Part shown: piece after piece, positions 42,356 through 61,573 of the stretch
Position numbering within the stretch: the stretch's first letter is position 1
Layout of the letters: the number at the start of each line of letters is the position of its first letter
Assembly: GCF_029846715.1 (NCBI RefSeq)
Contig: NZ_JARVWW010000002.1
Coordinates: 1-64,000 of the forward strand
Reading direction: 5' to 3'
DNA from: Bradyrhizobium nivariense
GTDB taxonomy: Bacteria > Pseudomonadota > Alphaproteobacteria > Rhizobiales > Xanthobacteraceae
DNA length: 64,000 bases
Notes under the pieces: generated by a model
What the model was told of the DNA's origin: nothing
Databases searched by the model: none
What the model saw: only the letters and a program-made list of their open reading frames with translations
Program-made: the position numbers and the translations under genes

Positions 42356-42796
42356 TCAGCGAAGCGACCTTCGCCAATAAAGCGTATGTGACCAAGCCCA
42401 GGGCACCTCGGGTTCGTAGAGTCGATAGCCCGCCTGGATGAAATTGTTGGCAGACACCGGATTGTTCGTCGTATCGGAGACGATGCTGTCCCATCCGATG
42501 CGGCGCCCCCGCGCCTCGACCGCCCGCATCAGCCTGAGCTGAAGTCCCCGCCCCCAATGCCGCTGCACGACCCCGACCCTGGCGAAGTAGCCGCTGTTTC
42601 GTGCATGCGTGGACGGCACGACGCCGGCAAAGGCGATCGCGTCGTCCCCGTGATAGGCCAGCCACCACGTTCCAAGGTCGAATTGCGGCATAGCCGCCGC
42701 ATCGAAGAACGTCAGCTGGTGCAGGTCGGACAAGGTGTCGACAACGTCATCATCAGACGCATCGACGATACGAATTCTGTACATGAGATGGCTCAT
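42356..42796 (-). CDS. GNAT-family N-acetyltransferase
   Basis: 146 residues. Acetyl-CoA-binding motif VVQRHWGRGLQLRLMRA and the following GWDSIVSDTTNNPVSANNFIQAGYRLYEP are classical GNAT motifs A and B. Substrate unknown. Single gene with its own strong terminator, marking the border between the catabolic region and the accessory island. Confidence 0.88.
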   Translation of the reverse strand: MSHLMYRIRIVDASDDDVVDTLSDLHQLTFFDAAAMPQFDLGTWWLAYHGDDAIAFAGVVPSTHARNSGYFARVGVVQRHWGRGLQLRLMRAVEARGRRIGWDSIVSDTTNNPVSANNFIQAGYRLYEPEVPWAWSHTLYWRRSLR

Positions 42797-42849: not shown

Positions 42850-43149
42850 TCATTTACCCAGCACGACCTTGACGCCTAGCCAAACCGCACCCATCAGGCC
42901 GGTGGCGATCACCGTAATCACGGCCTTGAAGGTGTAGCTCTGCGCCTGCTCCACGCTCGTTCGCCATCGGCGCAGGTGCTGAAAATCAGCCCTCAGCTCC
43001 TTTCGATCGTCATCCTCGATTCCAAAGGAGGCCAGCACCGATGCCACGGTCTGCAATACGATCGCATCGATATTCGCCTGCTGAAGCCTGTGTTGCTCGG
43101 CCAGCGTCTCGGCAACGATCGCCCTGATTTCGTCATCTGGTATCTTCAC
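42850..43149 (-). CDS. Small single-pass membrane protein, phage-associated
   Basis: 99 residues with a GTG start that overlaps the stop of the terminase fragment (GTGA). The N-terminal two thirds are charged helix (DDEIRAIVAETLAEQHRLQQ); a single membrane segment lies near the C-terminus (FKAVITVIATGLMGAVWLGV). The linkage to the terminase remnant suggests a phage morphogenesis or lysis-cassette protein; no clear family was recognised. Confidence 0.65.
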   Translation of the reverse strand: MKIPDDEIRAIVAETLAEQHRLQQANIDAIVLQTVASVLASFGIEDDDRKELRADFQHLRRWRTSVEQAQSYTFKAVITVIATGLMGAVWLGVKVVLGK

Positions 43150-43529
43150 CGCTTGATGATCCTCGCAACATTCTCGAAGCCGCGCTTGGCGAAGTAGAAG
43201 GAGACAACCAGATTGGCCTGCAGTCCGCGAAAGATGATCAGCCCGTCCCCGGGCGTCTCGATCTTGTCGCTGAACAGCTTGAAGCCGTGGCCGAGCCCAA
43301 GGCTCGCGATCTTGCCCTCGATCAGCCGCTTGGAAGACTGCGCCAGCGTCCGCTGCGCCTCGCGGATACAAACCGCAAGCGTACCGCGCTCGGCCTGGCA
43401 GGTCTCGACCAGAAGCTCGCCGAAGAAATGCGATTTGCCCGAGCCGCGTCCGCCGTAAATGCCCTTGTAGCGCGCGGGCTTGAGCAGCGGCTCGAAGATC
43501 TCGGCCGTCGGAATTCTCAGGATGGACAA
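43146..43529 (-). pseudogene. Phage terminase large subunit, N-terminal fragment
   Basis: 127 residues. It starts like a large terminase (TAEIFEPLLKPARYKGIYGG) with a Walker A motif GGRGSGKSHFF, then the adenine-motif region and DGLIIFRGLQ. There the terminase similarity breaks: the remaining ~20 residues do not follow the family. Full-length proteins are ~400-550 residues, so Walker B and the nuclease domain are gone. An internal deletion is likely. Confidence 0.7.
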
Positions 43530-43547: not shown

Positions 43548-44354
43548 CTAGGGCAGGCCGGTACGCCTGCGCCACATCGTGGACCAGTCTTCTGTGTCGG
43601 GAGTGTCGAGTTGTCGCTGCCGGGTTTGGCTCAGGTCAGGAGCGGCCGCGTTTTCAGAGAATGGCGGCCAGAGTCCAAAAAGCCCTCCGAACTGTTTCTG
43701 CGCGGCTGGTGGAAGCGTAGACGCAGGGCCGGCTTCGGGGACCGCTATCGGCTCCGAATCGAATGCCGATCGGCTCGGGCTTCCTGCAGGCATTCTAGTC
43801 AGAATCCGCACGTCTGCTGGTGACGTTGCCGGTACCGTCCGGGCGTCTCGCAAATATTGTCGATACTCCGGAATATAAGCTGGCGGTGCTGGGTTGGGAT
43901 CGAACGGCCCCAACGCATCGGAAAACGCGCGTGGATCTATGAGATTTCCCGAAGGATCCTTGATTTGATAGTGAACGTGCAGGTCTCCCTTCTTCCCATC
44001 TTTACGGATTAGACCTGTGTTTCCCATTGTCCCAAGGATCTGGCCTGCCGCCACGGGATCGCCGATCTTCACGTGCCTGGCATTGCTGTGCAGTATCTGA
44101 TGCAGGAGGCCGTCCTTATCTCGGATGGCAATCGTTCCCCACTTGTCTTCGCCGGCGTTCTCAACAACCCCATCCACCGGCGACCGCAACGCGGGATGAC
44201 TCTTGTTCAAACGAGCCTCTTGTCCGCCGACATAGTTGAAATCGATACCTCGATGCGGATTGGATGAACCACGCGGCCGGTTGGTCGTCTCTCCATATCC
44301 ACTCGTACCATGGGGCGCCACGCGCCCGATGGGTTGCAAGATGCGCCGCATCAT
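43548..44354 (-). CDS. M23-family (LytM) metallopeptidase-like protein
   Basis: 268 residues. Zinc-site motifs HRGIDF (HxxxD) and HVHY (HxH) are both present, at about residues 34 and 128. The central part LRSPVDGVVENAG..KWGTIAIRDKDG is typical of LytM endopeptidases. The C-terminal 110 residues are Pro/Ala-rich and unstructured. No N-terminal signal peptide is visible, which fits a phage-type or otherwise exported peptidoglycan hydrolase. It sits 18 bp upstream of the terminase fragment. The start could be either of two adjacent Met codons. Confidence 0.8.
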   Translation of the reverse strand: MMRRILQPIGRVAPHGTSGYGETTNRPRGSSNPHRGIDFNYVGGQEARLNKSHPALRSPVDGVVENAGEDKWGTIAIRDKDGLLHQILHSNARHVKIGDPVAAGQILGTMGNTGLIRKDGKKGDLHVHYQIKDPSGNLIDPRAFSDALGPFDPNPAPPAYIPEYRQYLRDARTVPATSPADVRILTRMPAGSPSRSAFDSEPIAVPEAGPASTLPPAAQKQFGGLFGLWPPFSENAAAPDLSQTRQRQLDTPDTEDWSTMWRRRTGLP

Positions 44355-45490: not shown

Positions 45491-45578
45491 AAAAACCCGC
45501 GACCAACCGTTCGGCGCGGGCATCAACCAACTCGTCTCGATGATGCCATTCTGCCGGTGTTTTGCCCGACGTGTCAAA
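45491..45578 (-). repeat. Dispersed promoter-terminator element, copy 1
   Basis: Minus strand: TTGACA (45577-45572), 18 bp, CAGAAT (45553-45548), leader, then a hairpin with CGCGGG/CCCGCG arms (45520-45496) and T5. It lies 42 bp past the end of the terminase-small-like frame. Confidence 0.8.
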
Positions 45579-46268: not shown

Positions 46269-46357
46269 AAAAAACCCGCGGCGGATGCTTTCCGCGCGGG
46301 TGAACCAAACTCGTCTCGATGATATCATTCTGCCGGTGTTTTGCCCGACGTGTCAAA
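46269..46357 (-). repeat. Dispersed promoter-terminator element, copy 2
   Basis: Minus strand: TTGACA (46356-46351), 18 bp, CAGAAT (46332-46327), leader, hairpin CCCGCGCGGA / TCCGCCGCGGG (46300-46275), then six T. It is the best terminator of the set. The outer stem pair is A-T here, where copies 3, 5 and 6 have G-C. Confidence 0.85.
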
Positions 46358-46371
46358 ACCTATGTTGAATT

Positions 46372-46460
46372 AAAAAGCCCGCCGCAGATCGCTCCGCGCG
46401 GGCTGAACCATACGTCTTTCGATGATGCCATTCTGCCAGTGTTTTGCCCGACGTGTCAAA
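46372..46460 (-). repeat. Dispersed promoter-terminator element, copy 3
   Basis: Minus strand: TTGACA (46459-46454), 18 bp, CAGAAT (46435-46430), leader, hairpin AGCCCGC / GCGGGCT (46404-46376), then five T including the last stem base. It is immediately followed on the plus strand by the 70-codon gene. Confidence 0.85.
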
Positions 46461-46720: not shown

Positions 46721-46786
46721 GCCGCTCCGCGGGCGGCGCGCATCTCGATGATGCCATTCTGCCGGTGTTTTGCCCGACGTGTCAAC
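46721..46786 (-). repeat. Dispersed promoter-terminator element, copy 4 (short)
   Basis: Minus strand: TTGACA (46785-46780), 18 bp, CAGAAT (46761-46756), shorter leader, hairpin GCCGC / GCGGC (46737-46721), no T-run. The terminator half seems to have been replaced by, or merged with, the 3' end of the adjacent gene. Confidence 0.7.
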
Positions 46787-46916
46787 GCGACGAAGGCGGA
46801 AGAAGGATTCCTTCCTCCCACTCAGATATCTGGTGTGCAAGGGGCTTGCTTCAAGCCCCCGGCCCTGCCGTAGAACCCTCGCCCCGAAGACCATCCAAGC
46901 CTCGAGGGGTCATCAC

Positions 46917-48467
46917 ATGCCTGTATTGCTCCCGACGTCCCGGACGCGCGGCCACACCAAACGGGCCGGCGCCCGCCACGCCAAAGACCACGCCGTGGTG
47001 ATCGCCGGCGGTGGCCCGACCGGGTTGATGCTGGCCGCGGAGCTGGCGCTCGCGAATGTCGACGTCGCCGTGGTCGAACGGCGCGCCAACCGGGACCTCG
47101 TCGGCACGCGCGCCGGCGGCTTGCACGCGCGCAGCATCGAGATCCTCGATCAGCGCGGCGTCGCTGACCGCTTCCTGCGCGAAGGACAGATCACCCAGCT
47201 CGCGGGATTCGCCTGGACCAGGCTCGACATCAGCGACCTCCCCACCCGGCACGCTTACGGGCTCACGCTGCGGCAGAGCCACATCGAGCGCATCCTGGCC
47301 GATTGGGTCGAGGAGCTCGCGGTGCCGATCTATCGAAACGCCGAGGTGGCGGGCTTCGCGCAGGACGAGACCGGCATCACCGTGACGCTCTCCGGCGGCG
47401 AGACGTTGCGCGCAGATTATCTGGTCGGCTGCGACGGTGGACGCAGCCTGGTGCGCAAGACCGCCGGCATCGACTTCGCCGGCTCCGATCCGACGCTGAG
47501 CAACCTCATGGCCGAGGTCGAGATGCGCCAGGACCCGGCTGGCGAGCTGGCATGCGCGCCGGCCTGGGGCCTGCGCCACGACGCGCTCGGTTTTCACGGC
47601 CTCAGCAAAACCGAGAGCGGACGCGTGCTGGTGGTCGTGACGGAAGCGACGCTCGAGCGCACCGGCGAGCCCGGCTTGCGCGATCTCAGCGACGCCCTCG
47701 TCGCCGTGTACGGCACCGACTTCGGGCTCCACAGCCCGTCCTGGATCTCCCGTTTTACTGATGCGGCACGGCAGGCCCACTCCTATCGCAAGGGACGCGT
47801 GCTGCTCGCCGGCGATGCCGCGCATATCCATCACTCCGTGGGCGGACAAGGCCTCAACACCGGCGTGCAGGACGCCGTCAATCTCGGCTGGAAGCTGGCG
47901 CAGGTCGTCAAGGGCACGTCGCCCGACAGCCTGCTCGACACCTACCACACCGAGCGCCATCCCATCGCCGCGCGCGTGCTGCGCAACACCATGGCGCAAA
48001 TCGCCCTGCTCCGCCGCGGCGACGACGGCCTCAAGGCCGCGCGCGAAATCGTCTCTGAACTGCTCACGATGGACGAGCCGCGCAAACGTTTTGGCGCGAT
48101 GATGAGTGGGCTCGACGTGCACTATGATCTCGGCAAAGGACACGCGCTGCTCGGGCGGCGCATGCCTGATCTCGATCTGACGATCGACGGGCGTCCGCTG
48201 CGACTATTCACGCTGCTGCGCGGCGCGCGAGGCGTGCTGCTCGATTTTGGTAAGGCCGGCGGCCTCGATATCGCGCCCTGGGCAGATTGCGTCGATCGCA
48301 TCGACGCCGATTGCGACGGCCCGTGGCAGCTTCCGGCGATCGGCCAAGTCGCCGCACCAGGCGCCGTCCTGGTGCGGCCCGACGGGCACGTGGCCTGGGT
48401 GGGAGATCAGAGCCAACACGGACTTGCTGACGCGCTGACGAGGTGGTTCGGACCGCCTGCGGCGTGA
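46917..48467 (+). CDS. FAD-dependent monooxygenase, PHBH superfamily with C-terminal thioredoxin-like domain
   Basis: 516 residues from ATG 46917, preceded by GAGGGG. FAD motifs: IAGGGPTGLMLAAELAL, GCDGGRSLVRKTAG, and GDAAHIHHSVGGQGLNTGVQ. A C-terminal ~110-residue domain (LLRGARGVLLDFGKAGG, PGAVLVRPDGHVAWVGD) matches the extended group that includes PgaE, MhpA and rifampicin monooxygenase. It hydroxylates a phenolic or polyketide-like substrate. It is isolated from other catabolic genes inside the accessory island, so detoxification of a foreign aromatic is an alternative to catabolism. Confidence 0.87.
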   Translation: MPVLLPTSRTRGHTKRAGARHAKDHAVVIAGGGPTGLMLAAELALANVDVAVVERRANRDLVGTRAGGLHARSIEILDQRGVADRFLREGQITQLAGFAWTRLDISDLPTRHAYGLTLRQSHIERILADWVEELAVPIYRNAEVAGFAQDETGITVTLSGGETLRADYLVGCDGGRSLVRKTAGIDFAGSDPTLSNLMAEVEMRQDPAGELACAPAWGLRHDALGFHGLSKTESGRVLVVVTEATLERTGEPGLRDLSDALVAVYGTDFGLHSPSWISRFTDAARQAHSYRKGRVLLAGDAAHIHHSVGGQGLNTGVQDAVNLGWKLAQVVKGTSPDSLLDTYHTERHPIAARVLRNTMAQIALLRRGDDGLKAAREIVSELLTMDEPRKRFGAMMSGLDVHYDLGKGHALLGRRMPDLDLTIDGRPLRLFTLLRGARGVLLDFGKAGGLDIAPWADCVDRIDADCDGPWQLPAIGQVAAPGAVLVRPDGHVAWVGDQSQHGLADALTRWFGPPAA

Positions 48468-48494: not shown

Positions 48495-48581
48495 ACAAAG
48501 AAGCCCGCGGAATTCCGCGGGCTTGAACCAGGCACCTTTTCGACGATGCCATTCTGCCAGTGTTTTGCCCGACGTGTCAAA
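48495..48581 (-). repeat. Dispersed promoter-terminator element, copy 5
   Basis: Minus strand: TTGACA (48580-48575), 18 bp, CAGAAT (48556-48551), leader, perfect 10-bp stem AAGCCCGCGG / CCGCGGGCTT with AATT loop (48524-48501), then TCTTTG. It lies between the convergent FAD monooxygenase and AHH-protein genes. Confidence 0.85.
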
Positions 48582-48624: not shown

Positions 48625-50295
48625 TCAGTCCGGCCGAAGCAGCGGCCTTATCCAGCGCGAGAACCACTCCTCGGCTTCACTGTGCGGACTGCCTGCACCA
48701 TCCACTCCAAAGATCGGTGGCGGAATGAGATAGCTCGGCTCATTCGCAAATGGGCCGATCGGCCTGCTCGGCTCCGGCTGTCGGCCGTCAGCAGTCGGCA
48801 TGGTCCAGTTGCCAAACCGATCGTTGAATTCCGTGGAAGGCAGATAAGGGACTGGCGCACTCCCCGACGTGAAAACGCTGCCCGCATTCGACTCATTGAC
48901 ACGGGTGAGACGGCGAACCTCTTCGGGCGCGAGAGTCGCTGCGGCAGGAGGGGCCGACCCTTCTGGCAAGTTCGATGGCCGCGCAGGCACAGTGCCTGCC
49001 GAAGTGTCGGCCCAGTTTCCGAAGCGGTCGGCAAAGGTGCTGGCCCGAGCCACATCTGGATCAAGCGGGTAATGTCCGGCCAGCGGCAGCCCGAGCATCG
49101 AGGAAGCAGAATCGTCGCCGCTGTTGGTGGCGTTATCGGAAGTGTGGCTAATCCCGAGATAATTGTAAGGGGCCGCACCTGCGGAGAAAACTCCTCGGCC
49201 ATCGGCTTCCGCGCCCTCCGCCGGCACCGATTTGATGTCTTGCGCCCCGGCGGCGCCAACACCCACCGCCACACCTGCGCCCAAGCCCAACATGGCTAGC
49301 CAAGCGGGAATGAACGGAACCGCTACGCCGAGCGCCGCCGCTCCGGCCAACCACGGAAGAACATCTCGGGCCAGAGTCGAGTTATTGGCCGAATGGCCCG
49401 TCAAGGGATTTTCGTAGAACGGAAGCGACACCCCGGTCATCGGGTCGGATTTGAGAACAAACGGGTCCGACGGCGCGGCGGTAGTCGGAGGTAATTGGCC
49501 AAACTGTTGTTCATTCGGATCAGGCACCGGAAAAGCCGGTAGCACACCTGTGAAGCGCGGATCACTTCGCGCAAACCCTTCCGTTGCGTTCAGACCTGCG
49601 AGAGAAGGCGAACTGTAGCCTCGCAGCGGTGGAAACTCGCTCGGGTTGACTGGTGTCGAGCCGGGTATACGAAAGATGCTTGAGGAGGGATCGGACGCTT
49701 CGAACCTGGACCAATGCGTTCCGTTCAGGTCTCGATTGCCTGAAGTTAAGTTAACGTCAGGATTTTGAGCTATCACTTCATCTAGCAATTTCCGTCTCTC
49801 AGGGTTATCCAGGTAAAGCATCCATTTAATCAGATGGTCCTGGCCGGAAGCTGCTCCTTTTTGCTCAAGGTCTCTAATTGCCTGTAGTCTCTCCGGGTAT
49901 CGATCGCGATAGGCCTTGTAATCTGCGAAGATCTTCGCAATTCCGAGAGCAACGTCCTCGTCCGTTTTTCCGATCGGCACATTTGTGTAGAGATCGCCAT
50001 TGGCGAAGCCTATACGCATTGCATCAATAAGAGCCTTTATTTCTGCGGCTCGATCGCCTGAACTCGGAATATCTGCGATCCGATCAAGTGTTTTACAGAC
50101 GGCCTCGACATAGGAAGTAACGTGTCTGCCGGGATGAGGCGACACATTCAGTTTCGCGGCGAACTCCCGATCTGCTGGCAGATAGATGCGATTTGCGGGT
50201 GAATCGATATCGAACGTTTGCTTATCTATATCCTTAAACGCGGGGTGGCTTCTAAAGCGCTCGAGGATAATGTGATGATCAAACAGAATTGCCAT
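48625..50295 (-). CDS. Large protein with N-terminal AHH-type nuclease domain (putative toxin)
   Basis: 556 residues. Residues 1-75 match the AHH (HNH/Endo VII) nuclease pattern: His7-His8 (DHHII), Asn35 in NRIYLP, and HPGRH at 54-58. A helical region to ~175 follows, then a long Pro/Ser-rich part. A Gly/Ala-rich hydrophobic stretch at ~313-351 could cross or perforate a membrane. Unlike most polymorphic toxins, the nuclease sits at the extreme N-terminus with no signal or trafficking domain before it. The Imm11-like gene upstream on the same strand is the likely immunity partner. Activity is inferred. Confidence 0.72.
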   Translation of the reverse strand: MAILFDHHIILERFRSHPAFKDIDKQTFDIDSPANRIYLPADREFAAKLNVSPHPGRHVTSYVEAVCKTLDRIADIPSSGDRAAEIKALIDAMRIGFANGDLYTNVPIGKTDEDVALGIAKIFADYKAYRDRYPERLQAIRDLEQKGAASGQDHLIKWMLYLDNPERRKLLDEVIAQNPDVNLTSGNRDLNGTHWSRFEASDPSSSIFRIPGSTPVNPSEFPPLRGYSSPSLAGLNATEGFARSDPRFTGVLPAFPVPDPNEQQFGQLPPTTAAPSDPFVLKSDPMTGVSLPFYENPLTGHSANNSTLARDVLPWLAGAAALGVAVPFIPAWLAMLGLGAGVAVGVGAAGAQDIKSVPAEGAEADGRGVFSAGAAPYNYLGISHTSDNATNSGDDSASSMLGLPLAGHYPLDPDVARASTFADRFGNWADTSAGTVPARPSNLPEGSAPPAAATLAPEEVRRLTRVNESNAGSVFTSGSAPVPYLPSTEFNDRFGNWTMPTADGRQPEPSRPIGPFANEPSYLIPPPIFGVDGAGSPHSEAEEWFSRWIRPLLRPD

Positions 50296-51652: not shown

Positions 51653-51739
51653 AACAATAAAGCCCGCGGCATTCCCGCGGGCTTTATCCGAATTCTTCCG
51701 ATGATGCCATTCTGCCAGTGTTTTGCCCGACGTGTCAAA
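51653..51739 (-). repeat. Dispersed promoter-terminator element, copy 6
   Basis: Minus strand: TTGACA (51738-51733), 18 bp, CAGAAT (51714-51709), leader, perfect 11-bp stem AAAGCCCGCGG / CCGCGGGCTTT with GAATG loop (51685-51659), then ATTGTTGT. It sits between the DUF4261-like and Imm11-like genes, both on the minus strand, so it could also end one transcript or start another. Confidence 0.85.
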
Positions 51740-51781: not shown

Positions 51782-52564
51782 TCACTCTGGATCAGAACCG
51801 TCGTCACAGAAAAGTACGGGCAAGCCATCGAACTGCTGGGAGTTTTTGTAACGGACCCTGAAGCGCTCGCGCATGTTGGCGCCAAACGTATCACCGTCTT
51901 TGACCACAAGTCCGTGCTCAATCAGATAGTCGGTAAGACCGTCCACCTTGTCCATCAACGCTGCAAGCGTTAGCCTGTGAGTCTCGAACTCGATTTCACG
52001 TTCGGCAAATGCCGAGAGCCCCACCGTCACCGCGCCGATGCCGCCCTCTGATCGGAACGGCAGTACATCGACCCACAGCGTGGAAGGATAGTCTGGGAAC
52101 GGCGCAAACGATCGACTGGACATGTCCAACCATAGATCGGCAGGCCGTGCGACCTTGCCATTCCATACAACGGCGCAACATTGCGGCATGGTCGCGATCA
52201 ATGCGCCGATGACAGCAGTTGTCAGACGAGCGGCCGGCAATGATCGCTGCTTTTGACCGAGCACCGAGACGATCAGATGCCCACGATGCCGCGCCGCGAT
52301 GGCCTTGCCCTGCGGCCACGACGGAGACGCGCGCGACCACAGGCCGGGATCGTCAGGAATGCGCGCCGGCATCGACATGACGGCAACAAATTCATTGCCA
52401 CAGCGAATGAGCGGCGAGTTTGCTTGAACCTGTTGCGCCTCCTCGTTCTCCGCAGCCTCCGTTGCCAGCTCCGGATGGCGAGCGCGGAGGACCTTCGCAA
52501 CCGCCGACATGTCCGGCGTTGCCGGATCGTCCAGGAGGACCAAAGCCAGAAGCGAGTTACTCAT
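51782..52564 (-). CDS. DUF4261-like protein, putative LexA-controlled gene
   Basis: 260 residues from MSNSLLALVL. Overall pattern (LLALVLLDDPATPDMSAVAKVLRAR at the N-terminus; VSMPARIPDDPGLWSRASPSWPQG; HRGHLIVSVLGQ; CCAVVWNGKVARPADLWLD; SAFAEREIEFETHR near the C-terminus) resembles DUF4261 proteins, whose function is unknown and which often lie near toxin/immunity loci. The frame extends upstream through the promoter, but the LexA-type promoter at 52635-52663 argues for this start. A GGGGTGGCG stretch precedes it. Confidence 0.65.
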   Translation of the reverse strand: MSNSLLALVLLDDPATPDMSAVAKVLRARHPELATEAAENEEAQQVQANSPLIRCGNEFVAVMSMPARIPDDPGLWSRASPSWPQGKAIAARHRGHLIVSVLGQKQRSLPAARLTTAVIGALIATMPQCCAVVWNGKVARPADLWLDMSSRSFAPFPDYPSTLWVDVLPFRSEGGIGAVTVGLSAFAEREIEFETHRLTLAALMDKVDGLTDYLIEHGLVVKDGDTFGANMRERFRVRYKNSQQFDGLPVLFCDDGSDPE

Positions 52565-53097
52565 CGCCACCCCACGGAAATTTGGGCGACGCCGAGCGCT
52601 TCCGCTTGTCGCCCACAGGTAGAAAGCTTGACGAGAATAGAACAAAAGAAGAACATTGTCAACCAATGCTCGCTGCTCGCATCAACCGACCACGACAGCG
52701 CTGCCGGTTCAAGCGGTGTCAAACATCTCTTAGCTGGCAGGCGATACACGCGTTCTTCTGCAATCTTTCTCGCGAGTGATGACGCACTGAGCGGCGGCGG
52801 CACTTGAGCCGACGCAGAAACGTCACGTCACGCGTTCAGCGTCCGAAGCAACTCTGCCCGCACGATCCGATCTCGCTTCTGTCCAAAAGTGAACATTGGA
52901 ATCACAAACACTCAAGATGAGTAACTCGCTCAAGTCGCTGAACTTGCTCTCGCAATTTAATCCGCCAACATATCAAATGATGTGTCTCTCTCGCCGACAG
53001 AAGCGCAAAATTAATCCATCACCGCAAGGCAATTGGCATCGACCGATGATGAGACCGCCGAGATTGCTCCCGCCCCAAAAGAACGAGGGAGACGTGC
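52565..53097. other. Regulatory gap with SOS-type promoter; otherwise AT-richer, no gene seen
   Basis: 533 bp. Besides the LexA-type promoter, it holds an AT-richer part (52880-53030) likely to contain the promoter for the plus-strand small genes at 53098. No convincing open frame. Confidence 0.5.
52635..52663 (-). promoter_or_regulatory. SOS-type promoter: LexA box inside a sigma70-like promoter
   Basis: Minus strand: TTGACA (52663-52658), 17-bp spacer, TATTCT (52640-52635). The spacer contains GTTC-N7-GTTC (52655-52641), the alphaproteobacterial LexA box. Expected transcription start is near 52628, giving a ~64-nt leader before the DUF4261-like start. Confidence 0.7.
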
Positions 53098-55390: not shown

Positions 55391-55430
55391 GATGATGCAC
55401 TTATACAGGTGTTTTGCCCGACGAGTCAAA
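55391..55430 (-). repeat. Dispersed element, copy 7 (promoter half only, better -10)
   Basis: Minus strand: TTGACT (55429-55424), 18 bp, TATAAG (55405-55400). Spacer is as in the other copies except for its last bases. The hairpin is decayed: only a half-arm ATGCGGGCTTTTGCG remains near 55375. It lies 110 bp upstream of the NRAMP gene, pointing away from it. Confidence 0.7.
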
Positions 55431-60589: not shown

Positions 60590-61573
60590 TCACTCGCCCG
60601 GCGCGATCGCATTGCTCGGGGTCGGCCGGTCGGCGATCTGCTGGCCGAACAGGCTGCCGATCAATTCAACCGCGGTGCGCGCGGTGCGGCCACGCTCGTC
60701 GAGGAACGGATTGAGCTCGACGATGTCGACTGATCCGACCACGCCGGAATCGTGCAGGAGCTCCATGATCAGATGCGCCTCACGATAGGTCGCTCCGCCC
60801 GGCACCGTCGTGCCCACGCCGGGTGCGACGCAGGGGTCGAGAAAATCGACATCAAAGCTGACATGCAGCACACCATCGCACGCTTTCACGCGTTCGATGA
60901 CGCGGCGGATCAGCACGGCGACGCCGAACTCGTCGATCTGGCGCATGTCGATAACCCTGATCCGACGCGCGCGCATCAACTCCTTTTCGAGCTTGTCGAT
61001 CGAACGCGCGCCGAACAGGTCGAGCCTGTCGGGATGGATCGAGGCGCGCGGATCATCGCCGAGCAATCCGTCGAGGCCGGGTTCGCCGCACAGGAACGCC
61101 GCCGACATGCCGTGCATGTTGGCGGTGATCGTCGTCTCCGGCGTGTTGTAGTCGGCATGGGCATCGAGCCAGAGCACGAACAGCTCGCGTCCGCGCTCCT
61201 GCCAGTGGCTGGCCATGGCATTCACCGATCCCATCGACAGCGTGTGATCGCCGCCGAGGAAAATCGGCAGCGCACCGGTTTTTGCGATCTCGTAGCCTCT
61301 GCGGCTCAGCACGCGCGTCCAGCGCTGGATTTCGCGGTAATGATTGGCTCTGTCGGGGGGCCTGTCTGCGAGGTCCCGGACCTCGGCCACCGAGAGATCG
61401 CCGTAATCGGCTACCTCAAAGTCCAGGCTTTCGAGCAGCGTCGCAAGGCCGGCGGTGCGGAGCGCCGCAGGACCCATCAGGGTGCCGCGCTGCGAAGCTC
61501 CCATGTCGATGGGAGCGCCGAGCAAGGCGATGCGCCGGGCTCGATCCGTCGGGGTCCGATCGGTCTCGGTCAC
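60590..61573 (-). CDS. rocF: Arginase (ureohydrolase family)
   Basis: 327 residues, arginase length. The dinuclear Mn site is carried by GGDHTLSMG, LWLDAHADYNTPE and SFDVDFLDP; Glu in DIVELNPFLDERGRTA is also conserved. N-terminal LLGAPIDMGASQRGTLMGP is the arginase start pattern. It hydrolyses L-arginine to ornithine and urea. Single gene in its direction. Confidence 0.92.
   Translation of the reverse strand: MTETDRTPTDRARRIALLGAPIDMGASQRGTLMGPAALRTAGLATLLESLDFEVADYGDLSVAEVRDLADRPPDRANHYREIQRWTRVLSRRGYEIAKTGALPIFLGGDHTLSMGSVNAMASHWQERGRELFVLWLDAHADYNTPETTITANMHGMSAAFLCGEPGLDGLLGDDPRASIHPDRLDLFGARSIDKLEKELMRARRIRVIDMRQIDEFGVAVLIRRVIERVKACDGVLHVSFDVDFLDPCVAPGVGTTVPGGATYREAHLIMELLHDSGVVGSVDIVELNPFLDERGRTARTAVELIGSLFGQQIADRPTPSNAIAPGE

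Follow-up and report, generated by a model that had tools for sequence, protein, structure and literature searches.

The first 64,000 nucleotides of contig NZ_JARVWW010000002.1 of Bradyrhizobium nivariense (the window, taken here at its full length) contain, on the minus strand, a sigma-70-type promoter whose spacer is filled by a LexA-type box, and which stands at the head of genes encoding a DUF4261 protein, an Imm11 immunity-family protein and a protein with an AHH nuclease domain. We favour, as moderately probable in its entirety, the reading that this promoter is repressed by LexA and leads into a toxin-immunity cassette from an SU10-like prophage family, which occupies one fixed slot in Bradyrhizobium chromosomes and has decayed in the window. 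The individual parts carry their own weights: control of the DUF4261 promoter by LexA is very likely, with binding and induction argued from established SOS biology, and the assignment of the three genes to a cassette of this SU10-like prophage family is likely. Sequence comparison itself establishes that the box is there and is conserved, in what order the genes stand, that the nuclease residues are conserved and that the surroundings are those of a prophage.

The promoter and its conservation

On the minus strand, from 52662 to 52634, the promoter reads TTGACA-ATGTTCTTCTTTTGTTC-TATTCT, with the 17-nt spacer filled by GTTC-N7-GTTC. The initial annotation had described precisely this arrangement and was correct as to the sequence, but not as to the coordinates, which are 52634-52662 and not 52635-52663, i.e. 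one base lower. The box itself, GTTCTTCTTTTGTTC, lies 76-90 nt 5' of the DUF4261 ATG (52564), in a position that would block the promoter. The mechanically defined open reading frame (ORF) opens farther upstream, at 52666, and the ATG at 52564 was taken as the start because the orthologues align from there.

Among 265 genomes of the genus, a DUF4261 match was found in 85, and an orthologue aligned from the start with at least about 64% identity in 56; fragmentary matches (e.g. in G242, G104, G214, G182, G019, G184 and G213) fall outside these 56, and the copy with an internal stop in G113 falls inside. All 56 upstream regions were read, and a perfect GTTC-N7-GTTC begins 50-130 nt 5' of the ATG in 55 of them (29/30 plus 26/26), so that the recurrence of both blocks upstream of orthologues, which the initial annotation had named as the test that could refute it, is indeed observed. 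When the 55 sites are stacked, neither GTTC block varies and TTGAC is 93-100% conserved, whereas of the -10 element only T (80%) A (100%) is conserved. The core has a pairwise identity of 79%, versus 30-31% in the flanks, a sharp phylogenetic footprint. Distant DUF4261 copies (30-46% identity) have no box within 500 bp in any of 14 cases, which are a sample from a longer list and include one copy (L112) of uncertain start position. Named records with close DUF4261 relatives come nearly all from Bradyrhizobium.

The same box was found upstream of lexA in 30 of 30 loci of the genus, LexA being present in 60 of 60 genomes searched, and at the recA locus of this genome, where GTTCGCAATATGTTC lies 146 nt before the matched domain. 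Together with the conservation at the DUF4261 orthologues, this supports the earlier interpretation of the element as an SOS promoter. According to the accessible part of PMC12700426, GTTCN7GTTC is the LexA motif of Caulobacter; the alphaproteobacterial regulon described there shares with the present case the box and its placement within a promoter, and differs in that the predicted target here is a prophage-linked DUF4261 cassette.

The strict promoter pattern TTGACN3GTTCN7GTTCTA occurs in a single copy in the 9-Mb genome, at DUF4261 (reversed control: 0), and across the genus at 97 sites in 72 of the 265 genomes, versus 2 sites for the reversed pattern. Forty of the 97 are at DUF4261 starts (one of these, in G182, a fragment) and 57 are elsewhere, in 38 genomes. 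A tighter form of the box, GTTCWYNWWWTGTTC, picked post hoc once hits had been viewed, is enriched in the genome (11 versus 1); some of its 11 sites stand beside genes for a DinB-type polymerase, Ku, a metallophosphoesterase and a radical SAM protein, and several others have no recognised gene alongside.

Some minor observations concern the same motifs. Two related small proteins starting with MDNRINEIRR are encoded behind tight LexA-type boxes in the genome of the window (G000; loci L069 and L071), the one at L071 without a Pfam match. An identical strict promoter, TTGACACTGTTCTTTATTTGTTCTA, is present in eight genomes (G046, G048, G049, G114, G148, G149, G150 on contig C2 and G264 on C3); the copies are on secondary contigs, one that was read (L307) precedes a small gene of 83 aa, and they are apparently unrelated to prophage. 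Within the window module of DUF4261, Imm11 and AHH there is no further GTTC-N7-GTTC; the other copy in the window, at 61002-61016, is GC-rich in its middle part (GTTCGGCGCGCGTTC) and is probably a chance occurrence.

The cassette and its prophage setting

The gene order common to the orthologues is DUF4261, then Imm11, then the AHH nuclease, on one strand in the window. In 37 mapped loci, a subset of the 56 orthologue genomes, DUF4261 is followed downstream by Imm11 in 36 and by AHH matches in 34; a search for a further conserved gene in the interval from Imm11 to AHH gave no clear candidate. The C-terminal region of the AHH protein is present in 50 of the 56 DUF4261 genomes, and DUF4261 in 50 of the 53 genomes with that region (E < 1e-30), both counts ignoring kinship among the genomes. 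The DUF4261 gene differs from its nearest orthologue with nonsynonymous and synonymous divergences (dN and dS) of 0.112 and 0.525. In an alignment of the 32 AHH proteins longer than 450 aa, residues H7, H8, N35, H54, H58 and Y62 are invariant (32/32). They match the HH, N, H, H and Y of the published Tox-AHH set, the first letter of the motif (A or G as published) being variable, and D in the window. The AHH domain occupies residues 7-79 of 556, and hence no toxin domain is found in the classical C-terminal position. In the structure model residues 1-190 fold well and the middle is disordered, the model beyond residue 200 being too weak to read.

The cassette is embedded in what appear to be remains of a larger element. 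The same slot is used in the window, G007 and G109, with host genes in common on both sides, and in G013, where one side was seen; the distance from the coenzyme A-transferase gene to the DUF4261 start is 38.7 kb in G007 versus 11.7 kb in the window. Pfam matches to 42 of the 49 ORFs of the G007 island, with a family listing that covers 25 of 39 families, comprise SU10 portal, capsid, adaptor, terminase, collar, AHH, WHH, SUKH and DUF4261, and name no integrase. In that island two SUKH (SMI1/KNR4) immunity-family genes adjoin the portal and capsid genes (L304), and the ORFs include a WHH nuclease match as well as a weak match to a colicin DNase. A terminase match lies downstream in 14 of the 20 module genomes that were read farther (2 full length, 12 partial). 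Around strict promoters not associated with DUF4261, 20 stretches were read, and many of the sites stand among phage genes, including those for terminase (PF04466, E 5.9e-25), SU10 portal (PF23899, E 9.1e-122), SU10 capsid (PF17236, E 3e-93), tail-fibre and virion proteins.

Viral contigs provide an independent view, although some of them may derive from genomes already searched: the best 80 of 338 relatives, fetched by the island capsid alone and not dereplicated, include 36 contigs with TTGA[CT]N3GTTCN7GTTC, whose 46 copies share the strand of the capsid gene without exception, 44 of them in distinct contexts; the reversed control gives 0. For the bare box the counts are 96 and, in the control, 21. 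One contig carries, in addition to the capsid, a DUF4261 gene whose product is 82% identical to that of the window, together with the promoter.

The AHH C terminus appears to be a shared part. Its profile matches other island proteins with differing N termini, including M23 proteins (E 1e-22 to 1e-4), and in the scanned loci 10 of the 36 promoter sites have an ORF bearing this tail at most 4.5 kb downstream. Several strict promoters drive tail-less genes, and one recurs on second replicons, outside a prophage context. Among named phage records the tail has no match, and DUF4261 has none in phage records and four, all distant, in plasmid records; a phylum-wide search outside the genus gave weak matches only. 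A contig of Burkholderia sp. 4M9327F10 (L233) carries DUF4261, Imm11 and AHH in identical order, with no beta-type LexA box in the stretch that starts 700 bp before the gene and ends 100 bp inside it. There the AHH domain is N-terminal in a protein of at least 1426 aa, whose C-terminal repeats are common to two neighbouring genes.

Proposed mechanism and competing explanations

In the uninduced cell LexA would occupy the two GTTC blocks between the -35 and -10 elements and bar RNA polymerase; upon DNA damage RecA would promote LexA cleavage, and DUF4261 would be expressed. DUF4261 would act as an extra immunity-type protein that guards, together with Imm11, against the AHH nuclease, and the C-terminal tail of the AHH protein would mark the nuclease as prophage cargo. 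Whereas the window has lost the majority of the virion genes, its cassette is intact, and a present role for the host, in competition or in protecting itself, is therefore probable.

How far the transcript would extend may depend on the gap between DUF4261 and Imm11. A hairpin similar to that of the window is found there in 21 of 36 loci, a gap of 22-84 nt without hairpin in 11, and a gap of 127-273 nt in which the hairpin search found none in 4. In the window no separate Imm11 promoter is clear by eye; a promoter scan proposes TTGACA-18-CAGAAT (51738-51709), which falls within a dispersed repeat and upstream of the hairpin. Given this pattern of hairpins and gaps, DUF4261 is the direct fit for the SOS promoter, whereas Imm11 and AHH fit it only conditionally: read-through may extend to them, and this is most plausible in lineages that have no hairpin.

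Several observations weigh against a LexA-controlled prophage cassette. In this clade the hairpin separates DUF4261 from Imm11. The single orthologue without box, in G210, is an intact DUF4261 that also lacks Imm11 and AHH, and other DUF4261 proteins occupy unrelated surroundings. No SU10 portal or capsid, both present in G007, has a tblastn match in the window, and no terminase was matched within the stretch read in 6 of the 20 module genomes. The Bradyrhizobium podophage ppBeUSDA76-2 (OP596614), reported in the accessible part of PMC10127595 to be spontaneously produced, has a terminase 73% and a capsid 68% identical to those of the island, but unlike the island it possesses an integrase and lacks the promoter. 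The bare motif GTTC-N7-GTTC is found twice in the window versus 1.88 times in shuffles, and 192 times genome-wide versus 236 for its reversed control. To the same side belongs the structural evidence on DUF4261, whose likeness to SUFU proteins reaches a Z of 7.6 at most, below 8, and finds no counterpart in sequence.

The confident model of DUF4261 (predicted local distance difference test, pLDDT, 89.5; predicted template modelling score, pTM, 0.87) has SUFU proteins in 6 of the 7 top rows of a structural comparison (Z 5.8-7.6), all in its C-terminal half. The remaining row is a CdiI immunity protein aligned with the N-terminal half (Z 6.1), and unrelated folds appear at similar Z; Foldseek matched neither PDB nor viral entries at E <= 0.001. 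Homology to SUFU was rejected by sequence: the families that 55 members match do not include SUFU, PDB sequences yielded none, and hhalign gave a probability of 0.1 (percent scale) against eight Bradyrhizobium SUFU proteins. The likeness is therefore taken as a hint only. SUFU-like domains are listed as an immunity family alongside AHH toxins in the part of PMC3482391 that is accessible, and the proposal that DUF4261 is itself an immunity-type protein is put forward tentatively, as somewhat short of an even chance.

Coincidence of the two GTTC blocks would agree with the failure of the bare motif to be enriched; it was rejected on the grounds of conservation, not of motif counts, given the 55 orthologues that keep the box and the 46 copies against 0 in viral contigs, and we practically dismiss it. 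A more serious competitor is that DUF4261 is a damage-response protein of the host in its own right, with Imm11, AHH and the prophage remains as incidental neighbours. DUF4261 alone is directly behind the box and is isolated by the hairpin here, G210 retains it without the other two genes, and the distant copies stand among host genes. However, the reciprocal co-occurrence of DUF4261 and the AHH C terminus (50/56 and 50/53) and the other phage-island cassettes driven by the same promoter argue against such independence, and the G210 gene has lost the box too, which makes this explanation improbable in our view.

In nuclease colicins, a nuclease and its immunity protein are encoded with an SOS promoter. 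By analogy, damage could lead to synthesis of the AHH nuclease and its immunity protein and to their release by lysis, as an SOS-timed bacteriocin, and this is favoured by the pairing of AHH with Imm11, a known toxin-immunity couple, and by the 11 of 36 loci with a gap of at most 84 nt and no hairpin. The likeness to colicins extends to nuclease plus immunity under an SOS-type promoter, but here the promoter precedes an immunity-type candidate and not the toxin, Pfam recognises no receptor or translocation domain and hence no colicin delivery domain, no lysis gene is recognised beside the window cassette, and the hairpin is present in 21 of 36 loci; we regard this mode of action as quite improbable. 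Very improbable is an intracellular defence, i.e. a damage-induced anti-phage or abortive system made of the nuclease and DUF4261, for which one could cite a nuclease with a regulator-like partner retained after prophage decay. The initial annotation had thought of a toxin, prophage or defence system; the first two find agreement in Imm11 and AHH, which travel with DUF4261, and in the terminase fragment and M23 gene downstream, whereas the defence part is not borne out, since the three proteins have no PADLOC match (nor one in NCBIfam), and both Imm11 and the shared tail of the putative cargo speak for toxin and immunity.

A broader version of the favoured cassette reading, speculative and on the whole unlikely, is that the fixed-slot, phage-derived and apparently integrase-less SU10-like element is a domesticated, damage-triggered device for toxin delivery, in which host LexA would directly induce cassettes that pair small immunity-type genes with an N-terminal effector and an interchangeable C-terminal particle tag, the window keeping one such cassette.

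Pairs of AHH with Imm11 are known toxin-immunity systems (PMC3482391, and a commentary on Myxococcus, PMC12077181, in their accessible parts, which do not mention SOS). The AHH residues and the adjacent Imm11 (36 of 37 loci) are alike here; the differences are the N-terminal nuclease, the position of Imm11 upstream of it, DUF4261 before Imm11, and the SOS promoter in front of the whole cassette. Temperate phages also carry the polymorphic MuF toxins described in the available part of PMC5576092, in which a toxin is likewise attached to a phage-linked part that they have in common, but here the shared part is C-terminal, and the AHH protein has no Pfam match to MuF at E up to 1. Judged by title or abstract, none of the literature retrieved on LexA/SOS in Bradyrhizobium, on LexA boxes with toxins, or on Bradyrhizobium prophages and SU10 appears to describe this cassette, most subscription papers being outside the coverage. 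On the favoured reading, the uncharacterised domain DUF4261 would gain a testable role, direct control by LexA would extend to a group of SU10-like phages of Bradyrhizobium, and phages would carry effectors in which the C terminus, not the N terminus, is the shared and interchangeable part. Since the cassette has outlasted most of the prophage, it also suggests a benefit to an agriculturally used, nitrogen-fixing genus.

Features of the window

Features of the promoter, the cassette and the prophage remains in the 64-kb window
Feature	Coordinates	Strand	Evidence and remarks
SOS-type promoter	52634..52662	-	-35 TTGACA 52657-52662, spacer 52640-52656, -10 TATTCT 52634-52639; footprint in 55/56 orthologues
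LexA box GTTC-N7-GTTC, GTTCTTCTTTTGTTC	52640..52654	-	same box at lexA (30/30 loci) and recA
DUF4261 protein, 260 aa	51782..52564	-	PF14080 E 2.3e-9; pLDDT 89.5; C-terminal half with weak SUFU-like fold hint
GC-rich hairpin with T-containing tail, possible terminator	51657..51687	-	-27.1 kcal/mol in a 46-nt stretch; absent from list of consensus terminator scan
Imm11 immunity-family protein, 210 aa	50957..51589	-	PF07791 E 1.6e-46; after DUF4261 in 36/37 mapped loci
AHH protein, 556 aa (N-terminal AHH nuclease domain, disordered middle, conserved C-terminal tail)	48625..50295	-	PF14412 E 1.2e-7
Flavin adenine dinucleotide (FAD)-dependent monooxygenase	46770..48467	+	PF01494 E 2.5e-86; between AHH and terminase fragment in many relatives
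M23-peptidase protein of prophage remains	43548..44354	-	PF01551 E 2.3e-12; phrog_7767 E 3.2e-15
Terminase large subunit fragment, 127 aa (428 aa in relatives)	43146..43529	-	PF04466 E 2.2e-8; phrog_3717 E 3.8e-15; 90% identity over 110 aa
GNAT acetyltransferase, far end of island	42356..42796	-	PF00583 E 4.9e-8; same place in G007 and G109

The dispersed repeat mentioned above (TTGACACGTCGGGCAAAACACTGGCAGAATGG) is present in 6 copies with at most 3 mismatches, versus 0 expected, all on the minus strand and clustered in and around the island (45546-45577, 46325-46356, 46428-46459, 46754-46785, 48549-48580 and 51707-51738), and a variant of it is found at 55412-55429.
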